Of a DNA stretch of 52,601 nucleotides, positions 4,118-16,127 are shown piece by piece (the first letter of the stretch is position 1; the number at the start of each line of letters is the position of its first letter). Source of the DNA: Verrucomicrobiota bacterium (GTDB lineage Bacteria; Verrucomicrobiota; Verrucomicrobiia; Opitutales; Seribacteraceae). The translations under genes were made by a program, and so were the position numbers. The stretch covers positions 1 through 52,601 of the forward strand of contig JAOLZO010000017.1 of NCBI GenBank assembly GCA_028343845.1, given 5' to 3'. The notes beneath the pieces were generated by a model. The model made no database searches and was not told the DNA's origin. It saw only the letters and a list, made by a program, of their open reading frames with translations.

Positions 4118-5560
4118 TCAATCTACTGGAAGCTCGATCGGAACTTCACAGAAGGTGAGGGCCGCGAGGTCATTTACGCCCCAGATGATGGATTGATCCT
4201 GCCTCCATTTGCCGCCTCTGACGTAGGAAAGGTTCTTGGCCGCGGTGGGCCCGGCTAGTTTCAAAGTGATGGTTTTTTCGGAGCCACCCACGGCGGTCAG
4301 CTCAGCCGAGTCATCATCGAGATAAAACCGCTCGATGATTTCTTCGTCCCATTTCAAGTCCTGATCGAAAACCAACCTGATTTCGTCTTTCCTGTCGCTG
4401 ACATAAGAGACGCTCCGGATATTGGGCGGCGTTATCGAGGTCTTCGGTTCGACCCCATAGTTGTATTGGTTCACCAAGGGAACCAGTTGCCTAGCCATCG
4501 CCGCATAGCCTTCCGCCAAGTAGTGGCAACCACCACCCGGCCGGATACCGAGGGTCGAAAGAACGCTCATGTTGGAGAACTGCTTGGGCAATTGTCTTTG
4601 CCGCTCCCGCAAGCGGTCGCCTTCAACCGACCGACTGCCACAGGCCCCCGGCCAAATCTGATGGATATAGTAGTGTTTTATATTCGGATAGTCCTGCTTC
4701 CAAGCCGCCGACATGCGGATGAAATATTCTTCATAATTCACCCAACCATAGGCACCGCTCGCTCCTGACTCTCCCTGATCGTTTTCCCCCTGATGCCAAA
4801 GTACAGCGCGAACTCCGTGCGTAAGTTTCGCTTGTTGCAAGCGCCACAAAAGCCGGCCGTATATGGTGGTCACGTCCGTCGGGTCGGCCTCGTTGCGCTG
4901 GTGCTGGTCAACCCGGGTTCCACCCTGTGCCCCATTGATGATGCAGATGGGAATCTTATGGGTTTCGATAAGCGTCTTGCCCAGCTCCACGCCCCAATAG
5001 CCAATTTGGTAATGATGATGATTTGGGCCGCCGTTGAAAGACAAGGCGTTGCCCCAGACCGCGTCCCGGGCTCTATCCTTGTTCGTGCTCGGCGTACCGA
5101 AGCTGCGCAGCCAGGGGCTGCGGTACGGATGCACGACTCGTTGGTCCGTCCAGGCTTCGGCATTGGACTGGCCCTGAATGACGAAGACGTCGCCGCAGAC
5201 CAAGTCGTTGGCTTTTTCCAGAATCGTTTCGGCCCCGCCACGCTTGATGCCGAACTCCGTGCGATAGGCAATCAGGCCCGCCTGCAAGCTTGCGGCCAAG
5301 GCGTACTTTTTGTCGGCTCCGATCTTCTGGCCCTGCGTGTCGATCAGCTTGTCCCCGGCATAGAGCCTGAGGAATACCGAATCAGCCGGTTCCGTGAGCG
5401 TTCCTCTGTAGTGAAGCGTTCCCTTTCCCTTGTCGTCGCGAGAGTAGAACTGATGATCCACCGGTTTCTCATCGGCGGAAGGAATGCGTTTCACCCAGTC
5501 ATCCTGCTTTGTTTCGACCACTTCGATCCGGACGGAGCGTGATACCACGCCCCCCCCCAT
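4118..5560 (-). CDS. SGNH sialate O-acetylesterase-like domain (3' half of a split gene)
   Basis: This frame encodes the catalytic half of a carbohydrate esterase of the sialate O-acetylesterase/SGNH type, which removes acetyl groups from sugars. Visible motifs are the nucleophile block VIQGQSNAEAW, GYWGVELGK, the oxyanion block NGAQGGTR, the WHQGEND block and a C-terminal GGGCHYLAEGY carrying the probable catalytic His. The normal Asp of DxxH is not seen there. About 90 residues of beta-sandwich-like linker precede the SGNH domain. The frame has no signal peptide and no Shine-Dalgarno sequence. The only ATG before the esterase (5560) lies inside the nine-base homopolymer junction with the upstream frame. 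I therefore read it as the second half of one protein with the 5499-7199 frame. Removing one base from the homopolymer would fuse them into an about 1026-residue exported enzyme. Confidence 0.85.
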   Translation of the reverse strand: MGGGVVSRSVRIEVVETKQDDWVKRIPSADEKPVDHQFYSRDDKGKGTLHYRGTLTEPADSVFLRLYAGDKLIDTQGQKIGADKKYALAASLQAGLIAYRTEFGIKRGGAETILEKANDLVCGDVFVIQGQSNAEAWTDQRVVHPYRSPWLRSFGTPSTNKDRARDAVWGNALSFNGGPNHHHYQIGYWGVELGKTLIETHKIPICIINGAQGGTRVDQHQRNEADPTDVTTIYGRLLWRLQQAKLTHGVRAVLWHQGENDQGESGASGAYGWVNYEEYFIRMSAAWKQDYPNIKHYYIHQIWPGACGSRSVEGDRLRERQRQLPKQFSNMSVLSTLGIRPGGGCHYLAEGYAAMARQLVPLVNQYNYGVEPKTSITPPNIRSVSYVSDRKDEIRLVFDQDLKWDEEIIERFYLDDDSAELTAVGGSEKTITLKLAGPTAAKNLSYVRGGKWRQDQSIIWGVNDLAALTFCEVPIELPVD

Positions 5561-7199
5561 TGTCGAGGGCAAGCTCAATGGTCAGGTTTCCGCTGTTCTG
5601 GGCCCGTTGCAACACCAGCTTTCCGTTGCCAGATTCGTTGATCGTGGCCATGCCCGAAACCTTCCATGAGTAGTTCAGTTCGCCGGCCCCTTTGGACTTC
5701 ATCTCCTTTAGGTTGCTGATCGAGGGTACGATCTCCAGTTCATCCCTGCCATTCCACCTTTTGGGAGCTTTGAGCGTGTACGCGGGATCCGGTACGCTCT
5801 CCCGGATGGCAATTCGGATGGTCCGAGTTTTCACACCGGATGCGAAGACCGCCCTGAACTGCAAGGTGACCGATTTGTCTTCGGCAACCCGTCCGGCGTC
5901 AAAAGTATGGTTGAAGCGGTCGACGGCGAGGATCTCCGACTGGTCGCCATCCTGCAAAACCCAGTAGACCTTTCTGGCTCCTCCCGCTTTGGTGGACAGG
6001 GCGATCGAGGATCCCTCCTCCATCTCCAAATTTGACTCCGAGACCGAGAACTCGTCCCCATCCTGAACCAGTGGTCCGACCAATGACTGCAAAGGCTTCT
6101 GGTTCTCGAAACAGAGCTTCAGCCAGTTGGCCGAGCGGGCCACTGATTCGAAGCGCACCTCGTCGAGAGCGCCATTGAAAGGTCCGCGCCCGTTTCCATG
6201 ATCACCCAGATCAACGGGTGTTGACGTCGGGGTTCTCAACGTACCGAGCTTGCTAACTTCCTCCCCGTAGTTGTTGATCGTCCGCTCCAGAATGCCATCG
6301 ACGTAAAAGCGGACCATGTCCCCGGAAACGGCAAGGGCGACGTGCCGCCATTCGTTACGGGGCAAGAGGCTGGCGCACCTTGGGTCAAAGCCGTAGAGAT
6401 GAAACCGGGGCTGCCCTCTTCCCGTCATGGTGAAATAAGACAAGCCCATGTTCGGCTTCTGCCCCCGTTCCGGCTCACCCCATCCGCCAATTGACGCCTG
6501 AGCCCAGTTGCGCCCCTCGAAGCTGGTCGGGTTTACCCAGGCCGACATCGTACGGTCGGCATTGCCCGAGGGCATGCAGGTCACCCGACGGCCCGACTTG
6601 GCCCCGGGCGGACGGATGACGAGAATTTGATTCACGCCGAACTCCTGGGCGTCACCGATGATGCCGGTAGCATTGACCGTTGGCTTGTCCGGTCTGTTGA
6701 CGCCGTCCAGGTTGTTGGAAGTGGCGTCTTCCAAGTTGTCACCCAAATGCCAGACAGCGGCGAATCCTTCCGTGGTTCGGAATACATGCTCGCCATTACT
6801 TTCAGTGGAAACCTTATCATTGCCCCAATGCATCTTGATCGCCTGCTGATCCTTGCCCTTGATGGTCGGGATCCGTACCCAAATATCGGCCTCGCCACCC
6901 TCTGCATCCCAGCGTTCGATTTGGTAGGCCAATGGCTTGCCCGTGGAGGAGAAGCGGATGTCCTCGCCCTGGGGTTTCGCCTCGCTAAAATCGAAGTAGT
7001 CCTTGTTGAGCCGAATCAGCAACGGGAAGTTTTTCTCGACCGCCGATGCCGGCAGGTCCGCTCCGGCAGAGTCCGTGACGAGGTACGTCGAGCCCGAGTG
7101 TTTCCAGTCGTCATACTGAGCCGACGCCTGAGAAAGGAATCCGGCGAAAACCAAGACAAGGATCAATCGGGGCACATAAAAGGACGCATTCATTTTCAT
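5499..7199 (-). CDS. Secreted DUF2341-LamG protein (5' half of a split sialate O-acetylesterase)
   Basis: This 566-residue frame starts with a signal peptide (LVFAGFLSQASAQ). A DUF2341-like domain follows (about residues 50-130; NFPLLIRL, DIRFSSTGKPLAYQIERW, ADIWVRIPTI). A LamG/concanavalin-like domain occupies about 165-370 (TMSAWVNPTSF, WRHVALAVSGDMVRFYVDGI, GALDEVRF), then linker beta domains. The final 18 residues after DNGGG are basic and unlike the family, because the frame shifts at a run of nine G (coding strand, 5558-5550). The true continuation is the SGNH esterase in the next frame. Its start overlaps the stop of the previous gene by one base (TAATG), with GGAGG five bases upstream, so it is translationally coupled. 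LamG and DUF2341 domains presumably target glycans. Two readings are open: sequencing error, or real slippage/phase variation. Confidence 0.85.
   Translation of the reverse strand: MKMNASFYVPRLILVLVFAGFLSQASAQYDDWKHSGSTYLVTDSAGADLPASAVEKNFPLLIRLNKDYFDFSEAKPQGEDIRFSSTGKPLAYQIERWDAEGGEADIWVRIPTIKGKDQQAIKMHWGNDKVSTESNGEHVFRTTEGFAAVWHLGDNLEDATSNNLDGVNRPDKPTVNATGIIGDAQEFGVNQILVIRPPGAKSGRRVTCMPSGNADRTMSAWVNPTSFEGRNWAQASIGGWGEPERGQKPNMGLSYFTMTGRGQPRFHLYGFDPRCASLLPRNEWRHVALAVSGDMVRFYVDGILERTINNYGEEVSKLGTLRTPTSTPVDLGDHGNGRGPFNGALDEVRFESVARSANWLKLCFENQKPLQSLVGPLVQDGDEFSVSESNLEMEEGSSIALSTKAGGARKVYWVLQDGDQSEILAVDRFNHTFDAGRVAEDKSVTLQFRAVFASGVKTRTIRIAIRESVPDPAYTLKAPKRWNGRDELEIVPSISNLKEMKSKGAGELNYSWKVSGMATINESGNGKLVLQRAQNSGNLTIELALDNGGGRGITLRPDRSGRNKAG
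5550..5558 (-). repeat. Nine-base C/G homopolymer at a reading-frame break
   Basis: The plus strand shows nine consecutive C (nine G on the coding strand). Upstream of it the DUF2341-LamG frame is open; downstream the SGNH-esterase frame is open one base out of phase. Eight G would give DNGGGVVSRSV with both halves in frame. Such tracts are classic sites of sequencing error, but also of polymerase slippage and phase variation. Confidence 0.9.
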
Positions 7200-8335
7200 T
7201 ATTCCTCCCGCCTTTCAGGATTGGACCCGCGCTTCGTTGGTTTATTCCCGATACGCGCAATACGAACAAGCACTTTATCTCCCACGGGTTGACTTACAGC
7301 AACGCCCAAGGAACGACTGGGGTCTGAATTCCGGTTGTCTTTTTCGACATGAAGTGAGCGACGGGATGCGACTAGTACGTCTCCGGGTTCGACAGGCCCG
7401 CTGACTTTGGCCCAGGCGAGTCCGCGCACCATAACAAAGGTACCTGCGTCATCGACCTTCGCTACCACGAAAGGCAATTTCTCTCCGTGCTTGCTGACAG
7501 GCTTGACGCTCAACCGGGCGCTGGTGTCGAGGGCAACAACATCGCCTTTAACCAGACCATCCGGTGCATGCATAAAGACCATGACACCGGCAGGATCGTC
7601 CCTCTGAGGGACGGGTAGTCCTAAATTACAAGATACAAAATGGGCATCTCCAATCCACAGTCCGCCGCCGGAAACGTAGAGGCCGGGCATGGTGAGTATC
7701 CCGTCATCGGCATCGTTAGTCCCCCATGTCAGCACTGGTTCGGAAACCGAGTCTATGTGGTGCAAACCAGCGGAATCAGGAGAGCCTCCTCTTCTCCTGA
7801 AGTTATAGAAATTACCAAATCCGACTTCCGTGTTATGCGTTTGATATCTCCACCTGGCTCCCACCGGTTTTCCATCCTTGTCGAGTTTCTCGATCATCAA
7901 GGGCAAGTTCATCTCTCCGCCGCTTGGCATCGTATTAAGAGATAATGCGGGTTGAGTTTCATCCGCAAGAATTGTTCGTGGTTCGCGAGGATCGCAAATC
8001 GATACGTCGTCGTGGTCATACAGAAGAACTGCTGCAGGAGAAAGGATGCGTAATCTGTATTTTCCATTTGGAGCAGAGAAACCGTATCGTCCGCCTGCGT
8101 CGGCAGTGATGGGATTCGCAAGAGGTTTCTTACCCTGCGAATCGGCGAATACGTCAGCTAGGTCCATGGTGCCGGCAACCATAACAAAGACTTGCGCATT
8201 CGCGACCGCTGCTCCGGTCACAGGGTCGGCGACTCGCCCGTGATGCGTCTTCATTGCGTACCCATATCCAGGCAATATGAAGAAGATTATGGATAAAACC
8301 AAATAGACATAAAAGATGGGTGTGGATTTCATCAC
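7199..8335 (-). CDS. Secreted tail-fibre-like protein (third of three related proteins)
   Basis: The 378-residue product has an N-terminal signal peptide/hydrophobic segment. It carries an N-terminal beta domain with the pattern seen in phage tail-fibre and carboxypeptidase-regulatory-like proteins (VFADSQGKKPLANPITADAGGRYGFSAPNGKYRL). A variable central region follows. A C-terminal domain carries GDVVALD, FVMVRGLAWAKV and PGDVLVAS, then SLGVAV. The same N- and C-terminal patterns recur in the two genes upstream. It starts at GTG 8335 (or ATG 8332), with AGGAGG at good distance; that site overlaps the stop of the preceding gene. Its own stop overlaps the esterase start (TAATG). The gene is embedded in a run with an esterase, so surface display and glycan binding is a plausible role. 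No enzymatic motif is visible. Confidence 0.7.
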   Translation of the reverse strand: MMKSTPIFYVYLVLSIIFFILPGYGYAMKTHHGRVADPVTGAAVANAQVFVMVAGTMDLADVFADSQGKKPLANPITADAGGRYGFSAPNGKYRLRILSPAAVLLYDHDDVSICDPREPRTILADETQPALSLNTMPSGGEMNLPLMIEKLDKDGKPVGARWRYQTHNTEVGFGNFYNFRRRGGSPDSAGLHHIDSVSEPVLTWGTNDADDGILTMPGLYVSGGGLWIGDAHFVSCNLGLPVPQRDDPAGVMVFMHAPDGLVKGDVVALDTSARLSVKPVSKHGEKLPFVVAKVDDAGTFVMVRGLAWAKVSGPVEPGDVLVASRRSLHVEKDNRNSDPSRSLGVAVSQPVGDKVLVRIARIGNKPTKRGSNPERREE

Positions 8336-8346
8336 TAAAGAACCTC

Positions 8347-9540
8347 CTATTTCAAGAGTGCAAAGACAAACCCAGCTCTCTTCTCACCTGAGTTCTCAAC
8401 TGCCCAGCCGATAATTCTATTTATATCCATTTGGGTATTGTCCACTTCGGCGCATCCCGATTGGGCAGACGCGACCAACGTGTCACCTGGTTTAACGACT
8501 TCCCCGGTTTTAAGCTGAACAAAGGCTTCCCCTGCCGAGGCATAATAGGTAAAGCCGACGGCTCTAACCACGGGGTGAAGTTCTCCTTTGCCGGTTGCAA
8601 GTTTGAACTCTCCGCTAGCTAGGTCGACCACCCGCACCTCGCCGTATATCTGCGGTTCCGGTAAGAAGGGTCCGCCAAAGGTGGTGCTAAATGCGAAAGG
8701 AGACGTGATGCCCTGGTAGCGGGCTCGAAAGTACCGGGTGTTCTCATCAAGTCCTTCGCCAACCTTTAACAGAGAGCTGGCAGTATAAACGGGACCGCCC
8801 GGAGCATGGCTTAGCGCATTATTGAAAACAGGAGCAGTGCCGGCTGGCCCGGATGGCGCAACTGAATATTTCAGATACCCGTCAGCCCAACCGCCGGCGG
8901 CAGTAGCCGTGGTCTTGAATAATATGCACACGTCTTCGATATCGCGCGGTGCCCACGTCTCGTTTCCTGACGCATCTTTTTGCAGGTCCGTATTGTATAG
9001 AAGCATGTAGCTGCGGGGTGGCGCGGGCTCACTGCCCGTGCCGACGTAATGCATGCGCCAAGGACCCTTGGTCTCGATTTCCGGCCCATCCTCACGACGC
9101 AGTACAATGGAACTGCTGGTTTCGACCTCGTCGGAATCAATATGCGTTAAGGTCAGGGCAACCTCTTCAGAAGTCGCTGTTAAGGTGTGAGGATCGCTTG
9201 GGTCCAAGACATGCACCTCGGGATCAATTATCCTTTTTTCACCCCCGATTTCCTCAACGGTGGCATAGCGACCGTTATCCGCATAGAACCAGTACACGCC
9301 ATCGCTGGAAGTGGTGACAGGATTTGCAAGTGTGACAAGCCCTTCGGAATCACTGTAAAGAGTCGCTAACTCAGCGCCCGAGTAAACATGGACTTGGGCA
9401 CCCGATTTCGGGGCTCCGGTATCGAGAAAGAGCTGCCCGTAATGCTTCGCTTTGCCACATGCGTTCCCTGCCCAAAGAAGGAGCGCGATGGCACCAAGAA
9501 CAATCTTCGACGAAAGTGATTTGCTATTATGGTCTAACAT
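8347..9540 (-). CDS. Secreted tail-fibre-like protein (second of three)
   Basis: The 397-residue protein has a signal peptide ending near NACGKAK. The N-terminal domain shows QVHVYSGAELATLYSDSEG followed by TLANPVTTSSDGVYWFYADNGRY. This is the repeat pattern common to tail-fibre proteins and to both neighbours. The middle is unique and includes a Tyr/Trp-rich segment (WRMHYVGTG, YMLLYNTDL). The C-terminal domain shows VRAVGFTYY, then PGDTLVASAQSG and IIGWAVE, matching the ends of the flanking paralogues. It lies 15 bases downstream of the discoidin-containing gene and 11 upstream of the next, so it is clearly part of the same transcript. Function is not known; by family it is more likely a binding or structural surface protein than an enzyme. 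Confidence 0.7.
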   Translation of the reverse strand: MLDHNSKSLSSKIVLGAIALLLWAGNACGKAKHYGQLFLDTGAPKSGAQVHVYSGAELATLYSDSEGLVTLANPVTTSSDGVYWFYADNGRYATVEEIGGEKRIIDPEVHVLDPSDPHTLTATSEEVALTLTHIDSDEVETSSSIVLRREDGPEIETKGPWRMHYVGTGSEPAPPRSYMLLYNTDLQKDASGNETWAPRDIEDVCILFKTTATAAGGWADGYLKYSVAPSGPAGTAPVFNNALSHAPGGPVYTASSLLKVGEGLDENTRYFRARYQGITSPFAFSTTFGGPFLPEPQIYGEVRVVDLASGEFKLATGKGELHPVVRAVGFTYYASAGEAFVQLKTGEVVKPGDTLVASAQSGCAEVDNTQMDINRIIGWAVENSGEKRAGFVFALLK

Positions 9541-9555
9541 CGAATACGTCCCCGA

Positions 9556-11262
9556 CTAAGGTATAATGGTTAGGCGTGAAGTGGTGCTCACTGTCCCGAT
9601 AACTGCACGGGGGTCGACTGCCGCGGGAGCGGCAACTGCCTGCAGCGAACCCGCTCCCTGAGTGACAAGTAAATCACCTATGCTTATAGCTCCTGCCGTG
9701 CTGGGAACCATTCTCCCCGAAATCATAACGAATACGCGGGAACCGTCCTTTTTATAAACCACCGCGGGATTCTCATCGGCAAACTTGCGCGGCTTGATCA
9801 CGCCGAAAGGATCGGAAGGATCCAGTACGACCACGTTCCCGCGGTTTAGATTTCCCCCGGTGTTATTCTTTACTTCCATTGCGAGTCCTTCGTGCCCCCC
9901 ATTAAAAGCTTTGGCTGACATCTCTCCGTCCGCAGACACCCGGAACAGGGTTTCCATGACAGGCGACGTAAGGGTAGTAAAAGAGTCGTTTCCATACTCG
10001 AGGGAATGATCCTCCCCGTTGATACGAAACACATAAGATTGATTTTTGATGGTCCGTTTTTTCCACATGTTGGTTGTTTCATCCCAATCGGCGTTTAACG
10101 TCTGCGCCCAACCCTGTTTACCCTTGTTGACGATGATCCGGTATGGCGTTGGGGGATTATTGGCATCCGTGGATCCTGGCCGACCAAGTGACAATGCGTT
10201 GTTCCCACCACTCGTTTTCTCCCCTCTCTCGACGAGAGTAAGCGGAGGCGCATTTGAAGACGATCGAATGCTATGCGGAGCGTTGGGATTAATCATGGTG
10301 ACACCGCTTAAGGAATAACTGACAGAGGGGTGGGAGACATGAATATCGTATTCTCCATTGGCAACGTAGAAACGGAATTTGCCGTTCGCATCGGTAGTTA
10401 TGGGATTAGGCCGTTCGATAAAGTCGTCCGTGGTCGTTGCATAAACCACACTCTTTACAGGCACCTCGGTCGCGCCCGCTTCAGTTTCCACGGTGATTTC
10501 CCATATCGAAACATTTCCATAGGCGGTATCAGACGACCTCGTTACGTCGACCATGACGTAACGTCCGACTGGATTGGAAATATGGATTTTTGCAGTACCC
10601 TCCTCATTGTCCGGAATGACCGCCGTCCGGTTTACAAAGTCCCACTTGTCAGCGACTCCGTAAATTTTTCGGTACGGACTCTTTACACCGCCAGGCAGAC
10701 CCTTGCCCGTCGCAATGGTCTTCCATTTTTCCGGACCGCCGCCGGCCTTGCCATTCTTTTTCAACCCCATGGCTATGGCCTGGGCCTCCGTCAGTAACCG
10801 GACCGTGTAGTCTACTGCGGCGGAATTCTGGAAGTCGACCCAAACGGATCGCAACGGGACGTCCGCTCCGCAATCGACCCAAATCCATTGGTGGTTGCTG
10901 GAGGGTCGCGCAAAGGGAGGCAAAACGCCTGCTGCAGACGACCACCGCGTGCTTGGCTTGTCGTCAAAGGCCTGCTGGCCAGACAGGTTCCATCCGGTCG
11001 AAGAGACGTCGTGCGTCGCCGAGGTCAAGTTAAGAAAGGAAGCAAACTTCGTTGTGCCTGCACTTTCACCCTTGAATAATTTCCCTTTAATTTTGGTTCC
11101 TGCTTCATAAACAAGCACTGATGCCCCTGGAACAGGAGTACCCTTCGTCGACAACACAACGTCCGAGTAATATGCATGCGGTGGTTGCCCGAACACATTG
11201 GCCGCCAGACCCACCATCATTCCCAATAAAAGCAGCCGCTTTGTTCTTACCATTCGTTTCAT
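9556..11262 (-). CDS. Secreted tail-fibre-like protein with inserted discoidin (F5/8 type C) domain (first of three)
   Basis: The 568-residue product has a signal peptide (LLLLGMMVGLAANVFGQ). The N-terminal tail-fibre-like domain begins SVLVYEAGTKIKGKLF and is then interrupted. Residues of about 75-255 form a coagulation factor 5/8 type C-like domain. Its marks are an ATHDVSSTGWNLSGQQAFDD start, TRWSS, WIWVDCGADVPLRSV, VGRYVMVDVTRSSD and an ISIWEI-like end (VSIWEITVETE). The tail-fibre pattern then resumes with NPITTDANGKFRFYVANGEYDI. The C-terminal domain has RGNVVVLD, VFVMISGRMV, IGDLLVTQG and AVIGTV. Discoidin domains usually bind sugars on polysaccharides. Start at 11262 (alternative ATG 11253). 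It begins a four-gene set ending in the sialate esterase. Confidence 0.75.
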   Translation of the reverse strand: MKRMVRTKRLLLLGMMVGLAANVFGQPPHAYYSDVVLSTKGTPVPGASVLVYEAGTKIKGKLFKGESAGTTKFASFLNLTSATHDVSSTGWNLSGQQAFDDKPSTRWSSAAGVLPPFARPSSNHQWIWVDCGADVPLRSVWVDFQNSAAVDYTVRLLTEAQAIAMGLKKNGKAGGGPEKWKTIATGKGLPGGVKSPYRKIYGVADKWDFVNRTAVIPDNEEGTAKIHISNPVGRYVMVDVTRSSDTAYGNVSIWEITVETEAGATEVPVKSVVYATTTDDFIERPNPITTDANGKFRFYVANGEYDIHVSHPSVSYSLSGVTMINPNAPHSIRSSSNAPPLTLVERGEKTSGGNNALSLGRPGSTDANNPPTPYRIIVNKGKQGWAQTLNADWDETTNMWKKRTIKNQSYVFRINGEDHSLEYGNDSFTTLTSPVMETLFRVSADGEMSAKAFNGGHEGLAMEVKNNTGGNLNRGNVVVLDPSDPFGVIKPRKFADENPAVVYKKDGSRVFVMISGRMVPSTAGAISIGDLLVTQGAGSLQAVAAPAAVDPRAVIGTVSTTSRLTIIP

Positions 11263-11301
11263 GAATGTTTTGCGCTTATCAGGGGTTTCTCGTTGGTGCC
11301 G

Positions 11302-12159
11302 CTACTTCTTCCCTCTTTGCGTATTCTTCTCGATGAAAGCCCAAGTTGCCAATCCCCAGGCGTTTTCAGTCATGCAAATCGGGTTGTGAAGAAATTTCCT
11401 GGTAGGGTCTTTCTTGTTCAAACAACAGGAGCCAGCCGGGTAAGCGGCGATATCATTAGGCAACTGAAAATAGTCATAAGAAATCTTCAATTGGTCGAGG
11501 GAATCCCTAAACTTCCTGGTGTTGAGTCCCCCCTGCACCAAACGCAACTTCAGGGATTCTTGGATAGCTTTGGTTTTCTTTCCGTATTCAGGCACATAAT
11601 TGCGGGCCTGTGGATCGGTGAAACTGGTCCCCCCTCCCGCGTCCAGAGCCACTGCCGTCGAGAAGACGTCGAGGTGCTTGGCTCCCCAATAGATCGAGCC
11701 GGCCGCCCCCATGGAAAACCCCATGATGGTTCGCCCACCACGATTCCGGGTGAGGGCGTGTTCCTTCTCAAGATAAGGAAGCAGTTCGTTGAGGACGTTG
11801 GTTTCCGCCCGTTTGTCCTTGGCCCCGTCCCGCCACACCGTGCCCCCGTATTTCTCAGGGAAGACGACGGCGAAGTTTCCGATTTTGCCCGCCTTGCGGG
11901 CCGCTTCGTAACTTTGCATGACCTGAGAGGAGGCGTTGCCCCCTCCTGCCCCATGGAGAAAAACGATGAGCGGATAAGGCCCCTTGTCTTTGGAATGTCC
12001 CGGGGGAAGGTACAAGGTGTAGATGATCTCATCCCCCGTGACGGGTCCCTTGTAAGTGAGGTTCTTTTGGTATCGGCCCTCATGAACGCCCGATCCGGGT
12101 TGAGCCTGCATGACGCAAACACTTAGGGCGGCGAGGACGAGGATGGGCAGTATTGTCAT
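11302..12159 (-). CDS. Secreted alpha/beta hydrolase (esterase-like)
   Basis: The 285-residue protein has a signal peptide (LVLAALSVCVMQAQ) and the layout of the esterase/PHB-depolymerase-like alpha/beta hydrolases. IIYTLYLPPG leads in, PLIVFLHGAGGG (65-74) forms the oxyanion hole, and IMGFSMGAAG (146-154) carries the nucleophile Ser149. Substrates of relatives include acetylated or feruloylated polysaccharides and short-chain polyesters. The C-terminal third is unusual. The strand that normally ends in a catalytic Asp reads LRLVQGGLNTRKF, and where the His is expected there is NDIAAYPAG. A His occurs later (FLHNPICM). Whether the triad is complete is therefore uncertain. It lies between the DUF1552 gene (43 bases upstream) and the tail-fibre-like set (39 bases downstream). 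Confidence 0.82.
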   Translation of the reverse strand: MTILPILVLAALSVCVMQAQPGSGVHEGRYQKNLTYKGPVTGDEIIYTLYLPPGHSKDKGPYPLIVFLHGAGGGNASSQVMQSYEAARKAGKIGNFAVVFPEKYGGTVWRDGAKDKRAETNVLNELLPYLEKEHALTRNRGGRTIMGFSMGAAGSIYWGAKHLDVFSTAVALDAGGGTSFTDPQARNYVPEYGKKTKAIQESLKLRLVQGGLNTRKFRDSLDQLKISYDYFQLPNDIAAYPAGSCCLNKKDPTRKFLHNPICMTENAWGLATWAFIEKNTQRGKK

Positions 12160-12202
12160 GGAACGAATCTTCTCTTTACTCTTAGCCTCCCACGATGCTC
12201 TT

Positions 12203-13603
12203 TTAAGAAAGGAACTGTTTGATGGGGCCGGTTTGATCGTGGCCGAATTTAGTCAGTCCGGTATCAAGCGCACCGTAGTGCTCGATGGGGTTGCCGTAGG
12301 CATTGAGCAAGGTGGTGTAAAAGTTTCCGAGGGTGCTGTGACCGGCTTGTCCGTAGTTGGGCAAGCGTACGTATTGGCGGCGCAAGTCGACGCGGGTGTT
12401 GTCACCGGCCAGAACGACGAAGGGATACTCGGTTCCATGGGAATGGTGGGTTTCTCCACCGTCGGGAAAATAGAAAATCATGGTATTGTCGAACATCGTT
12501 CCTCCGGCTTCCGGGACGCTCTTGAGACGGGTCACGATTCGATCGACGAGGGTCATGTGATGGGTACGGGCCAACTCACGGATGGTCTCCGCCTTGAGGC
12601 CGCCGATCACTTTGTTGTGGCCGACATCGTGCATGTTCACCTTCTCGCCTTCGATTCCGGGTAACCCCGTATAGCGGTGACCCAACTCGTCGACGGTGAA
12701 GGCCACGACGTTGGTAAGGCCCGAGATGAGGGCACCGAGCAATACCTCGGAGTGGCCAACTTGACGGTCCAGAGTCGTCATCCCGGGGTCGAGGTATTTC
12801 GGATCGAGCTTGGGAACGTGCCGGCGGATGACGTCGGACATGGCGTCGATCTTGCGGTTGCGTTCACGGATCGCTTCCACCGAATCGGCATAATTCCCGA
12901 CCTTGGATTTCTCAAATCCGCCGAGCGAGCCTGCCGTGACCCCTTCGTTCTGGGCGACGAATTCAAGCACCTTTCGGTCGAGTTGGTATTGAGTCTTGGC
13001 GGACTGGTCGGTTGAAACAGACTTAAAGAGTTCCTCCATCGCAACACGCGGCGAACCGAAGGCATAATTGGGTTGCTGCGGACCACGGGCCGAAAAACCG
13101 GTTGCCACGTCGTCCAGGGTGCCGCGGGCATTGCCCCCTCCCAGAGGGAAACAAGCCAGCTCGATATGATCGGCGGGAGAGGGAAAGAGTTTGGCCAGTT
13201 CAAAGTCGACGGTGGCCCACTTGATGGAACTGGGGCGTTCGTTGGCTTTGAACACACCCAGCGAGGAACACCAGGAATGATGGCCCGTCGTGCACATCTT
13301 GCCGGAGAGCCCCTGCAGGATGGTGAGGTTTTCCTTGTGGGCGGAAAGTGGGTCCATCCATCCGGGAAGGTCGTGCGAATCGAGGTCGAGCTGGAAGGGC
13401 TCTTTGCGCTTTTCCTTTTCGAGGGTTTTCTCATCCAGACCGGGTGGCACCATTACGCGGGGCCAAAGACCGTTGCCGCGGTGCATGAAAATGAAACGCA
13501 TGGGGGGCTTAGCTGGTTGGGCAGCCCATGATGAGCCCTTCGCAAACGCCAAGGCGCCCGCTCCAAGGAGGGATTGCTTAAGGAAATCTCTACGTGTGTT
13601 CAT
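12203..13603 (-). CDS. DUF1552 family protein, Tat-exported
   Basis: The 466-residue protein starts with a twin-arginine signal (NTRRDFLKQSLLGAGALAF), so it is exported folded to the periplasm. The remainder matches the DUF1552 family, found in Planctomycetota and Verrucomicrobiota next to DUF1592 cytochrome proteins: RFIFMHRGNGLWPRVMVPPG, LQGLSGKMCTTGHHSW, GTEYPFVVLAGDN near the C-terminus and TLGNFYTTLLNAYG. The fold is related to DUF1501/alkaline-phosphatase-like proteins; no reaction is known. It follows the DUF1592 gene by 13 bases on the same strand and the two almost certainly work together. A second DUF1552 protein is at 20883-22145. Confidence 0.9.
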   Translation of the reverse strand: MNTRRDFLKQSLLGAGALAFAKGSSWAAQPAKPPMRFIFMHRGNGLWPRVMVPPGLDEKTLEKEKRKEPFQLDLDSHDLPGWMDPLSAHKENLTILQGLSGKMCTTGHHSWCSSLGVFKANERPSSIKWATVDFELAKLFPSPADHIELACFPLGGGNARGTLDDVATGFSARGPQQPNYAFGSPRVAMEELFKSVSTDQSAKTQYQLDRKVLEFVAQNEGVTAGSLGGFEKSKVGNYADSVEAIRERNRKIDAMSDVIRRHVPKLDPKYLDPGMTTLDRQVGHSEVLLGALISGLTNVVAFTVDELGHRYTGLPGIEGEKVNMHDVGHNKVIGGLKAETIRELARTHHMTLVDRIVTRLKSVPEAGGTMFDNTMIFYFPDGGETHHSHGTEYPFVVLAGDNTRVDLRRQYVRLPNYGQAGHSTLGNFYTTLLNAYGNPIEHYGALDTGLTKFGHDQTGPIKQFLS

Positions 13604-13616
13604 GGTAAAAATTGGA

Positions 13617-16127
13617 TTATTTACGGTACCTGAAGGAGTCAGAGGTTAAAAGGGAAATAATGACCTCTTTGAAACTTCCTCCGCTTCGGAGATAGGCCTG
13701 ATCGGCATCGATGAGGGTTTGGGAATCGGACGTAAATTCGTTGCGTCCCATGTAAAAACGGAAGGCATGGCGGATGATCGATTGGCGGACACGGGCTGAC
13801 TTGGCCAACCGGTCGATCAGATCAAAGGGGTCGGAGACTTCGCCGTCCAGGTTCGAGTCACCGGTGCCCCGCAACGCTCCCGAGGTGCGCACGGATTTGG
13901 TTTTATAGAGGTTGGCTCCATTTTTCTTCTTTGCCTTGGATACGAGTTGTTCCTCGTACTCCAAGGGTTCCTCGTGGCGGTAGCGCCCGAAGTCGTCGAA
14001 CACCTCGAAGGGAAAACCAAGCGGGTTCATGCGCTCGTGACATTTCCGGCATTCGGCTTGTCTGGTAACCGACTCGACCCGTTCGCGCAGGGTCTTGTGA
14101 GGATCCTCGGGTACTTGGGCGTCCACCGTGATGGGCACGTCGGGTACGCTTCCGGCTAGCAGTTTTTCCCGGATCCAGCGTCCGCGCTTGATCGGATCGG
14201 TATGAAAATTTGAGGAGTGAGCGATCAACCAGGCGGGGTGAGTAAGCAAACCTTTGCGTTGCGAAAGATCAAAAGGTTGCTCGACCGGGTAGTCCCAGAA
14301 CTCAACATCGTCCAAGCCCTTGTGGTTTTTGTTCTCCACTCCCCCGTAACGGAAAGGATTTGGCGTGGGCGGCAGGTTGTAAAACACCGAATGGTTGTAG
14401 GTGTAACCATGAGCAAAAGAAGGTGTCGTAAACGGCGTGCGCCCCTTGCCGATCGTTTCCCCCCAGAAATGCATGTGGCGCATAAATTCGCGCTTGGATT
14501 TCGTACCCGAAACCCGAACGGATTTCTTTGTGTTTAGAAAATCCAGATTCTCCTCGATGACCTTCTCCGGGTTTTCCTTCCAGTCCGTGTCCTTGAGCCT
14601 TTCGTAGGCTTGCGTCCATTCTGCAATGATCTTACGACCCGTTTCGTTGTCTTTGTCGTGGTAAACGAAAAACTCTTCGGTGGTCAGGAGGTTTTCGAAA
14701 ACCTTCTCGTCCTTCTTCAGGTACCAATCCACCACCCGGTCGGCTTCCTTGATCAGGAACCCGGGGGTGCCCAAGGTGCCGCGCCCGGGATTCTGGTAGT
14801 AACCATCGCTGCGCTCGATATCCTTGAAAACCTTGGCTGCTTTCGGATAGCCGAAGAATTCACGGAAGAAGCGGACGATCTTGGGGTGCGAAGTTTCATG
14901 GGAGCGCATGTTCTTACCGCTGATCTTATGGTCCACGGGCCCCTTGTAATAATTTTCGTCGGCAAGCAGACGCACCACTTCGCGACGGTAGTCGTTCTTG
15001 GATTCGAGACGCCCCTCTTGGGCGGCCTTGGATAGTTCGGGGTCAGGACTACGGTCTCCCAAGGCGTAGGCGATGGCCAAACTGCCTTCTTGGGCGGTGA
15101 GCTTGCTCCGACCGAATTCGTCAGGTTCGCCATTTCCCAATTCCAAACGATAAAGAAAATCGGACTCCAGCAAGACGGCAAAGAGCATTTGCCGCAACCC
15201 TTCCGAATTCCCGGCCAGTTCAATCGAAGAGCGTAACAGGTCGACGTATTTGGCAAGCTCCTCCTTCATCGGTTGGCGCATCAATACGCAATCGAACTGT
15301 TTCTCCACCGCAGCTTTCATTTCCTCGTCCGTCGGGGGCTCTGCCTTGAGGACGATTTTCTCAAAGGCCTCGGGCGTGACTTTGGGGTACCAGCGGTCTT
15401 TGCTACTCAAGCCTTTGAGCAGTTCCTCTTTTTGCGGAGTCTTCAGGCGGGCGGCAAAAATTTGTTTGCCCGCTATCCATTTGGCGTTTCCCAGCATCAC
15501 CAACAAATGTCCCCCATCCAAGGTCGTGACGTCATAATCACGAACCCCCGAACGATCGGGCAACAGGAACGGGTTCTTCACTCCATCAAACTGGCGGGTT
15601 GAAAACCCTCTTCTTTCATGGTCAGATAAGCCCAAAACGTTCATAACCCTTTCGTGGAAAATCCTCGGGCTGACCAGCCACCTCCGAGCGGGCGAGAACG
15701 GTTTGTCCGTAATCTCCCCGCTGAAGAGTTTCTCATGATCAACGTAATTTCCATAATTGGGGTAACGCAACTTTTCCTCTAGGGAGGAAGCCTTGTGCTT
15801 GCGAAGCTCCGCGTTCATCCAATCATACAACTGGTCCCGCTCCGTTTCGCTGGGCTGAGCTTTCCTTTTTTGGGGTGGCATCTCTTTGATGAAGATTTGC
15901 TCCTGCACCCGGTTTAACAAATGCAAACGGTCCTTCAGGGCCAAAGTCGCCAAGTTGTCCAGCCGGACCTCCCCCTTCTTGGTCTCGTCGTCATGGCAAT
16001 CGAAACAGTAATTGACCATCAGGTCCTCCATCTTATCGGGCATGACAAACGGAGCGGACCAAAGCCCTCCCCCACCCCAAAGAAAGGAGGGAATCAAAAC
16101 CAAAAGAAACCTAATCCAAAGAGTCAT
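13617..16127 (-). CDS. PVC cytochrome protein (DUF1592/DUF1588/DUF1585)
   Basis: The 836-residue exported protein has an N-terminal signal peptide and a PSCyt1-type c-heme motif CFDCH (residues 41-45). A central DUF1592-like region follows (AYALGDRSPDPELSKAAQEG, FFREFFGYPKA). DUF1588 lies around 610-720, with RGRWIREKLLAGSVPDVP and the second CxxCH (CRKCHERMNPLGFPFEVFDDFGRYR). DUF1585 is at the C-terminus (RQSIIRHAFRFYMGR and a closing SLLTSDSFRYRK). These proteins are assumed to be periplasmic redox enzymes or electron carriers; no substrate has been established. The canonical DUF1587 segment of the paralogue at 22192 is not obvious here, so this is a divergent subgroup. Its partner DUF1552 gene follows directly. 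Confidence 0.9.
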   Translation of the reverse strand: MTLWIRFLLVLIPSFLWGGGGLWSAPFVMPDKMEDLMVNYCFDCHDDETKKGEVRLDNLATLALKDRLHLLNRVQEQIFIKEMPPQKRKAQPSETERDQLYDWMNAELRKHKASSLEEKLRYPNYGNYVDHEKLFSGEITDKPFSPARRWLVSPRIFHERVMNVLGLSDHERRGFSTRQFDGVKNPFLLPDRSGVRDYDVTTLDGGHLLVMLGNAKWIAGKQIFAARLKTPQKEELLKGLSSKDRWYPKVTPEAFEKIVLKAEPPTDEEMKAAVEKQFDCVLMRQPMKEELAKYVDLLRSSIELAGNSEGLRQMLFAVLLESDFLYRLELGNGEPDEFGRSKLTAQEGSLAIAYALGDRSPDPELSKAAQEGRLESKNDYRREVVRLLADENYYKGPVDHKISGKNMRSHETSHPKIVRFFREFFGYPKAAKVFKDIERSDGYYQNPGRGTLGTPGFLIKEADRVVDWYLKKDEKVFENLLTTEEFFVYHDKDNETGRKIIAEWTQAYERLKDTDWKENPEKVIEENLDFLNTKKSVRVSGTKSKREFMRHMHFWGETIGKGRTPFTTPSFAHGYTYNHSVFYNLPPTPNPFRYGGVENKNHKGLDDVEFWDYPVEQPFDLSQRKGLLTHPAWLIAHSSNFHTDPIKRGRWIREKLLAGSVPDVPITVDAQVPEDPHKTLRERVESVTRQAECRKCHERMNPLGFPFEVFDDFGRYRHEEPLEYEEQLVSKAKKKNGANLYKTKSVRTSGALRGTGDSNLDGEVSDPFDLIDRLAKSARVRQSIIRHAFRFYMGRNEFTSDSQTLIDADQAYLRSGGSFKEVIISLLTSDSFRYRK

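Follow-up and report, generated by a model that had tools for sequence, protein, structure and literature searches.

The window (the whole stretch of 52,601 nucleotides that was analysed) carries the gene of a putative exported carbohydrate esterase whose coding frame is broken at a run of nine G, and we consider that this split is probably a length miscount of the G/C run in the consensus of the draft assembly. In the living organism there would most likely be a single gene, encoding one exported protein that is about 1,020-1,030 residues long and has the layout signal peptide, DUF2341, LamG, linker and SASA/SGNH esterase, and the surplus G would have come from library preparation, sequencing or assembly, not from the cells. 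A miscount is suggested by breaks that are confined to long G/C runs, fall in unrelated genes and have one sense, in a draft that is 64% complete. It is also favoured by the one-piece state of the gene in 92 of 97 places, by purifying selection on both halves, by the finding of MutS and MutL, and by the alignment with the relative G016, in which the tract is the sole uncompensated indel inside a gene.

A coding frame shift at a run of nine G

The run at 5550-5558 reads C9 on the forward strand and G9 on the reverse strand, and it is the sole run of nine in the window. A run of this length is unsurprising (1 observed versus 1.44 expected from 100 dinucleotide shuffles of the window); what goes beyond chance is not its existence, but the shift of the coding frame exactly at this tract. 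The features of the locus are the following:

5550..5558, reverse strand: G9 run with a +1 shift of the coding frame (from the sequence, codon-frame calls, the G016 alignment and the layout rule)
5499..7199, reverse strand: upstream frame, 566 aa, with a signal-peptide-like N-terminus, DUF2341, LamG, linker and a 16-residue tail
4118..5581, reverse strand: downstream frame, open from stop to stop, which holds the SASA/SGNH esterase domain
6759..6968, reverse strand: DUF2341, upstream-frame residues 78-147 (Pfam PF10102, E 4.2e-17)
6126..6563, reverse strand: LamG / Laminin_G_3, upstream-frame residues 213-358 (Pfam PF13385, E 5.7e-16)
4688..5191, reverse strand: SASA carbohydrate-esterase domain, downstream-frame (486 aa) residues 130-297 (Pfam PF03629, E 2e-12)
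5165..5167, reverse strand: Ser of the GQSN motif, invariant in three aligned homologues

As the original prediction had claimed, the G9 run separates a DUF2341-LamG frame from an esterase frame, and in the sequence as given there is no continuous frame through 5550-5558. The upstream frame opens with MKMNASFYVPRLILVLVFAGFLSQASAQ, which resembles a signal peptide as judged by eye, and GGGAGGAATA stands ahead of its ATG. Past the tract it gains RGITLRPDRSGRNKAG and then stops; the basic tail foreign to the family that had been predicted is indeed out of family, with a length of 16 residues past the tract instead of 18. The downstream frame, previously placed at 4118-5560, exists and reaches further, to 5578 if begun from a TTG and to 5581 when read from stop to stop. 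It has no ATG before codon 278 of the 476 that follow the junction, and only GTG and TTG occur earlier. The stop of the preceding gene and the start codon at 7199 overlap.

In the esterase piece, S121 (GQSN), the block W244-N249 (WHQGEN) and a late histidine, H335, are invariant across the three aligned homologues. We take these to be SASA/SGNH esterase motifs, and the GQSN serine is presumably the nucleophile, in line with the roles of such residues in the SGNH/SASA families. The sole hit of a PDB search with the esterase piece is a weak one, to sialate O-acetylesterase 9ega (E 0.0097), and a literature search found nothing on DUF2341 together with LamG. Judging from the domains, the DUF2341/LamG half probably binds polysaccharide and the SASA half probably removes ester groups. 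The order DUF2341, LamG, SASA is present in the window with the pieces taken apart, and in three relatives it is found each time in a single protein.

One-piece relatives and selection on both halves

Relatives were sought in a genus set of 27 genomes and in two wider searches, which contributed the best 80 of 308 loci and, out of 372 genomes from the order, another 15; the 372 were drawn from a larger group, and the two wider collections may share genomes. Within the genus set, matches to the esterase half occur in four of the 27 genomes, namely the window genome, G016 (90% identity, open frame of 1,036 codons), G024 (a contig-end fragment) and G009 (a weak match). The LamG half and the esterase half were searched separately in 99 loci, which correspond to 97 distinct places once the window genome and a duplicate place of G016 are set aside. 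The halves share one frame in 92 of the 97 places and are split in none (a count that includes the best 80 of the 308 loci); the other five are uninformative, four of them (L090, L166, L175 and L180) starting at a contig end and one (L179) having no LamG half. Among the best 80 of the 308 loci, the nearest are titled Roseibacillus, Akkermansiaceae, other Verrucomicrobiales and Planctomycetota. The search for one-piece homologues that had been proposed earlier thus found them in abundance and, with the three relatives that hold all three domains in a single protein, bears out the claim that the two frames are one gene. The window gene resembles the exported DUF2341-LamG-SASA proteins of these draft genomes, mostly Verrucomicrobiota and Planctomycetota, in having the same domains in the same order; however, a G9 run absent from the relatives interrupts its frame.

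Both pieces appear to be under the same constraint. Between G000 and G016, dN/dS is 0.150 before the tract and 0.173 after it. When L087 is used to polarise the codon changes, the G000 branch has 17 nonsynonymous and 32 synonymous ones before the tract and 8 and 23 after it. Purifying selection acts equally on what precedes the tract and on what follows it, and therefore the gene is not an old pseudogene. As far as codon changes can tell, the esterase half is translated under constraint, until recently or still.

In the nearest relatives the junction is encoded by mixed glycine codons. The longest G-run was counted over 30 bases before and 18 bases after the junction in the 95 of the 97 loci that extend far enough upstream, with the junction placed without gaps (the placement is poor for L179). 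It is 2 in 71 loci, 3 in 11, 4 in 9, 5 in 3 and 7 in 1, and in the two closest relatives it does not exceed 4. Since the relatives carry G-runs of 7 at most near the junction, the tract is not a conserved contingency site. A search of viral contigs by exact pattern, meant to find a second, independent copy of the site, returned 0 stretches, in a collection where records of the same or a very near genome may be absent.

The window aligns with G016 at 91% over 4137-15668. In this 11.5-kb alignment the remaining gaps are self-cancelling pairs, one 3-base gap, or intergenic, as is the single gap at 12184, which lies between the frames 11302-12159 and 12203-13603. Meanwhile, the G016 orthologue of the window gene 8347-9540 contains an in-frame C9 run (L024:6650-6658) that is absent from the window gene, which indicates that synonymous changes create and erase such runs.

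Other G/C runs in the draft assembly

The assembly, a draft of 107 contigs, contains 29 G/C runs of 8, nine of 9 and seven of 10, and none longer. All 45 of these lie within the fetched loci; for runs of 6-7 and for A/T runs, the counts cover those loci, about 245 kb. For comparison, the tracts of at least 9 that were covered in sister genomes are 22 of 22 in G016, 6 of 6 in G012 and 9 of 15 in G019. By the layout rule, the window genome has five split tracts, all shifted by +1, and three in frame, with 8 of 16 unclassed. The corresponding numbers of split, in-frame and unclassed tracts are 0, 16 and 6 in G016, 1, 4 and 1 in G012, and 0, 8 and 1 in G019. Among classed tracts, five split and three in frame in the window genome versus one and 28 in the pooled sisters gives a Fisher p of 0.0007. 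The one split tract of the sisters is a G10 run in G012 (L073:2040-2049), which splits a coding frame by +1. Besides the esterase tract, the split tracts of the window genome, each a G/C run of 9-10, are:

L022:3011-3019: chorismate-binding enzyme, split, +1
L014:3058-3067: ResB-like protein, split, +1
L015:3036-3044: GSDH-type dehydrogenase with cytochrome c, split, +1
L016:3055-3064: cadherin-repeat protein, split, +1

These genes were compared with relatives as well. The chorismate-binding enzyme has a match at 60% identity or more in 23 of 26 other congeners; its frame has 479-537 codons in 22 of them, 350 in G006, where it lies at a contig end, and 398 in the window genome, and its halves lie in a single frame in all five relatives checked. 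The halves of the ResB-like protein are likewise in a single frame in five of five relatives, at about 35% identity. For the dehydrogenase, G020 (89%) has a single frame of 590 codons, and an alignment of its DNA over the site shows a gap of one base and no run. For the cadherin-repeat protein, the downstream half alone was compared, and its relatives are contained in long frames.

Frames were also called with a sliding codon model, for which 124 long frames of the window genome served as the training set; its calls depend on the threshold. For runs of 9-10, it gave five shifted and four in frame in the window genome, and two and 26 in the sisters. One of the shifted calls, L010, is the dnaG/rpoD border, and L016 is split by the layout rule and not by the sliding call; L009 was called shifted under an earlier threshold, and a gene ends just ahead of its tract. 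Of the G/C runs of 6-8 within the fetched loci, 64 are in frame, and four shift calls resemble gene borders; for the runs of 8 in this assembly, the numbers are 21 in frame and one shift call, which is a gene border. Of the A/T runs of 8-9, the six that allowed a call are all in frame, and the A/T runs called shifted, by the program alone, are sixteen of 6 and one of 7. In G022, three very long G-runs (about 20, 11 and 27 Gs) stand within 72 bases (C22:6131-6202); they may reflect faulty assembly or a genuine G-rich element.

The breaks thus lie at long homopolymers regardless of gene function. In this they are like the homopolymer errors of draft assemblies (PMC4235727 and PMC4965091). According to the former paper, poly-C and poly-G of eight or more have a high error in Illumina data, and the latter describes slippage in PCR and an NGS error that rises with repeat number. 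However, drafts usually count such runs rightly, as seen from the runs of 8 and from the sister tracts of 9 or more, 28 of 29 of which are in frame, and this speaks against a miscount. Human data (PMC4240813) place most indel error at A/T runs and not at G/C, a bias that does not favour a miscount either; here the six A/T runs of 8-9 with a call are in frame. Whatever their cause, at least five genes of this draft are cut at G/C runs of 9-10, and its split genes are therefore not yet readable as pseudogenes, separate proteins or switches.

Alternative readings and gene neighbourhood

The alternative that survives best, although we regard it as unlikely, is that the tract truly has nine G in the sampled strain, in which case the esterase half would have been cut off by a recent, unprogrammed slip, either fixed or polymorphic, at a G-run that arose by chance. 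Real +1 lengths are possible because G runs longer than seven are hypermutable in bacterial cells (PMC4235727); the tract is young, with relatives that lack it, and a loss of this kind would be too new to have left traces in selection. However, such a slip does not sit well with four more G/C runs that are shifted alike, ordinary-metabolism genes among them, or with the sisters, whose classed runs of 9 or more are nearly all in frame. The presence of MutS (open frame of 887 codons) and MutL (629 codons) in the genome also argues against it. A mutator genome is less likely because of these two genes, known from sequence and with predicted function, and was rejected. If the lengths are real, they would amount to an unusual, widespread change of G-run length in a bacterium that has mismatch-repair genes.

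It is very unlikely that the G-run is both real and of varying length among cells of a natural population, with one lineage releasing either a secreted DUF2341-LamG polysaccharide binder or the complete LamG-esterase. If the four remaining split tracts are counted in, such a lineage would shuffle exported and metabolic functions through G-runs despite its mismatch-repair genes. Highly improbable, too, is an evolved slippage switch, either a phase-variable locus or slippage of RNA polymerase or the ribosome, that would alternate between a secreted binder and the full enzyme. The tract does sit between the binding and the catalytic halves of an exported protein, and its length is in the range called hypermutable in PMC4235727; in being an intragenic G-run of such a length, it is like the poly-G/poly-C tracts of phase-variable contingency loci in Campylobacter jejuni and Neisseria (PMC4965091 and PMC4235727). 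Unlike at those loci, the tract is unconserved, the split genes have mixed functions and mismatch-repair genes are present. A switch predicts a kept tract and a bias towards surface genes, and neither is seen: the longest G-run near the junction is 7 in one of 95 relatives and 2-5 in the other 94, and the split genes extend beyond surface proteins, in a small number of five. The C9 run that arose in frame in a neighbouring gene of G016 likewise points to runs that come and go. A conserved contingency or recoding site was rejected, as the relatives lack the tract. The last reading, two separate proteins or an old pseudogene, is hardly credible despite the two open frames in the given sequence, as the downstream frame goes without an ATG for 278 codons, none of the 92 informative relatives has two genes, and selection is unrelaxed after the break; two independent genes and an old pseudogene were both rejected on these grounds. 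Of the three causes named in the original prediction (error, pseudogene or slippage switch), error is the one that is likely; equal selection on the two halves tells against an old pseudogene, and a switch is unsupported in view of relatives without the tract, metabolic genes split in the same sense and the mismatch-repair genes. Homologues encoded as two separate genes with their own starts, which had been raised earlier, occur in 0 of the 92 informative places.

The same strand carries three large frames upstream of the esterase, at 7199-8335, 8347-9540 and 9556-11262. The first and the third have CarboxypepD_reg matches below the cut-off of Pfam, and the second has none; further upstream, 11302-12159 encodes a PF00756 esterase on the same strand. 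Near the split gene, the window also carries a sulfatase at 953-2311 (PF00884, E 2.5e-49), in keeping with a polysaccharide-degrading neighbourhood.
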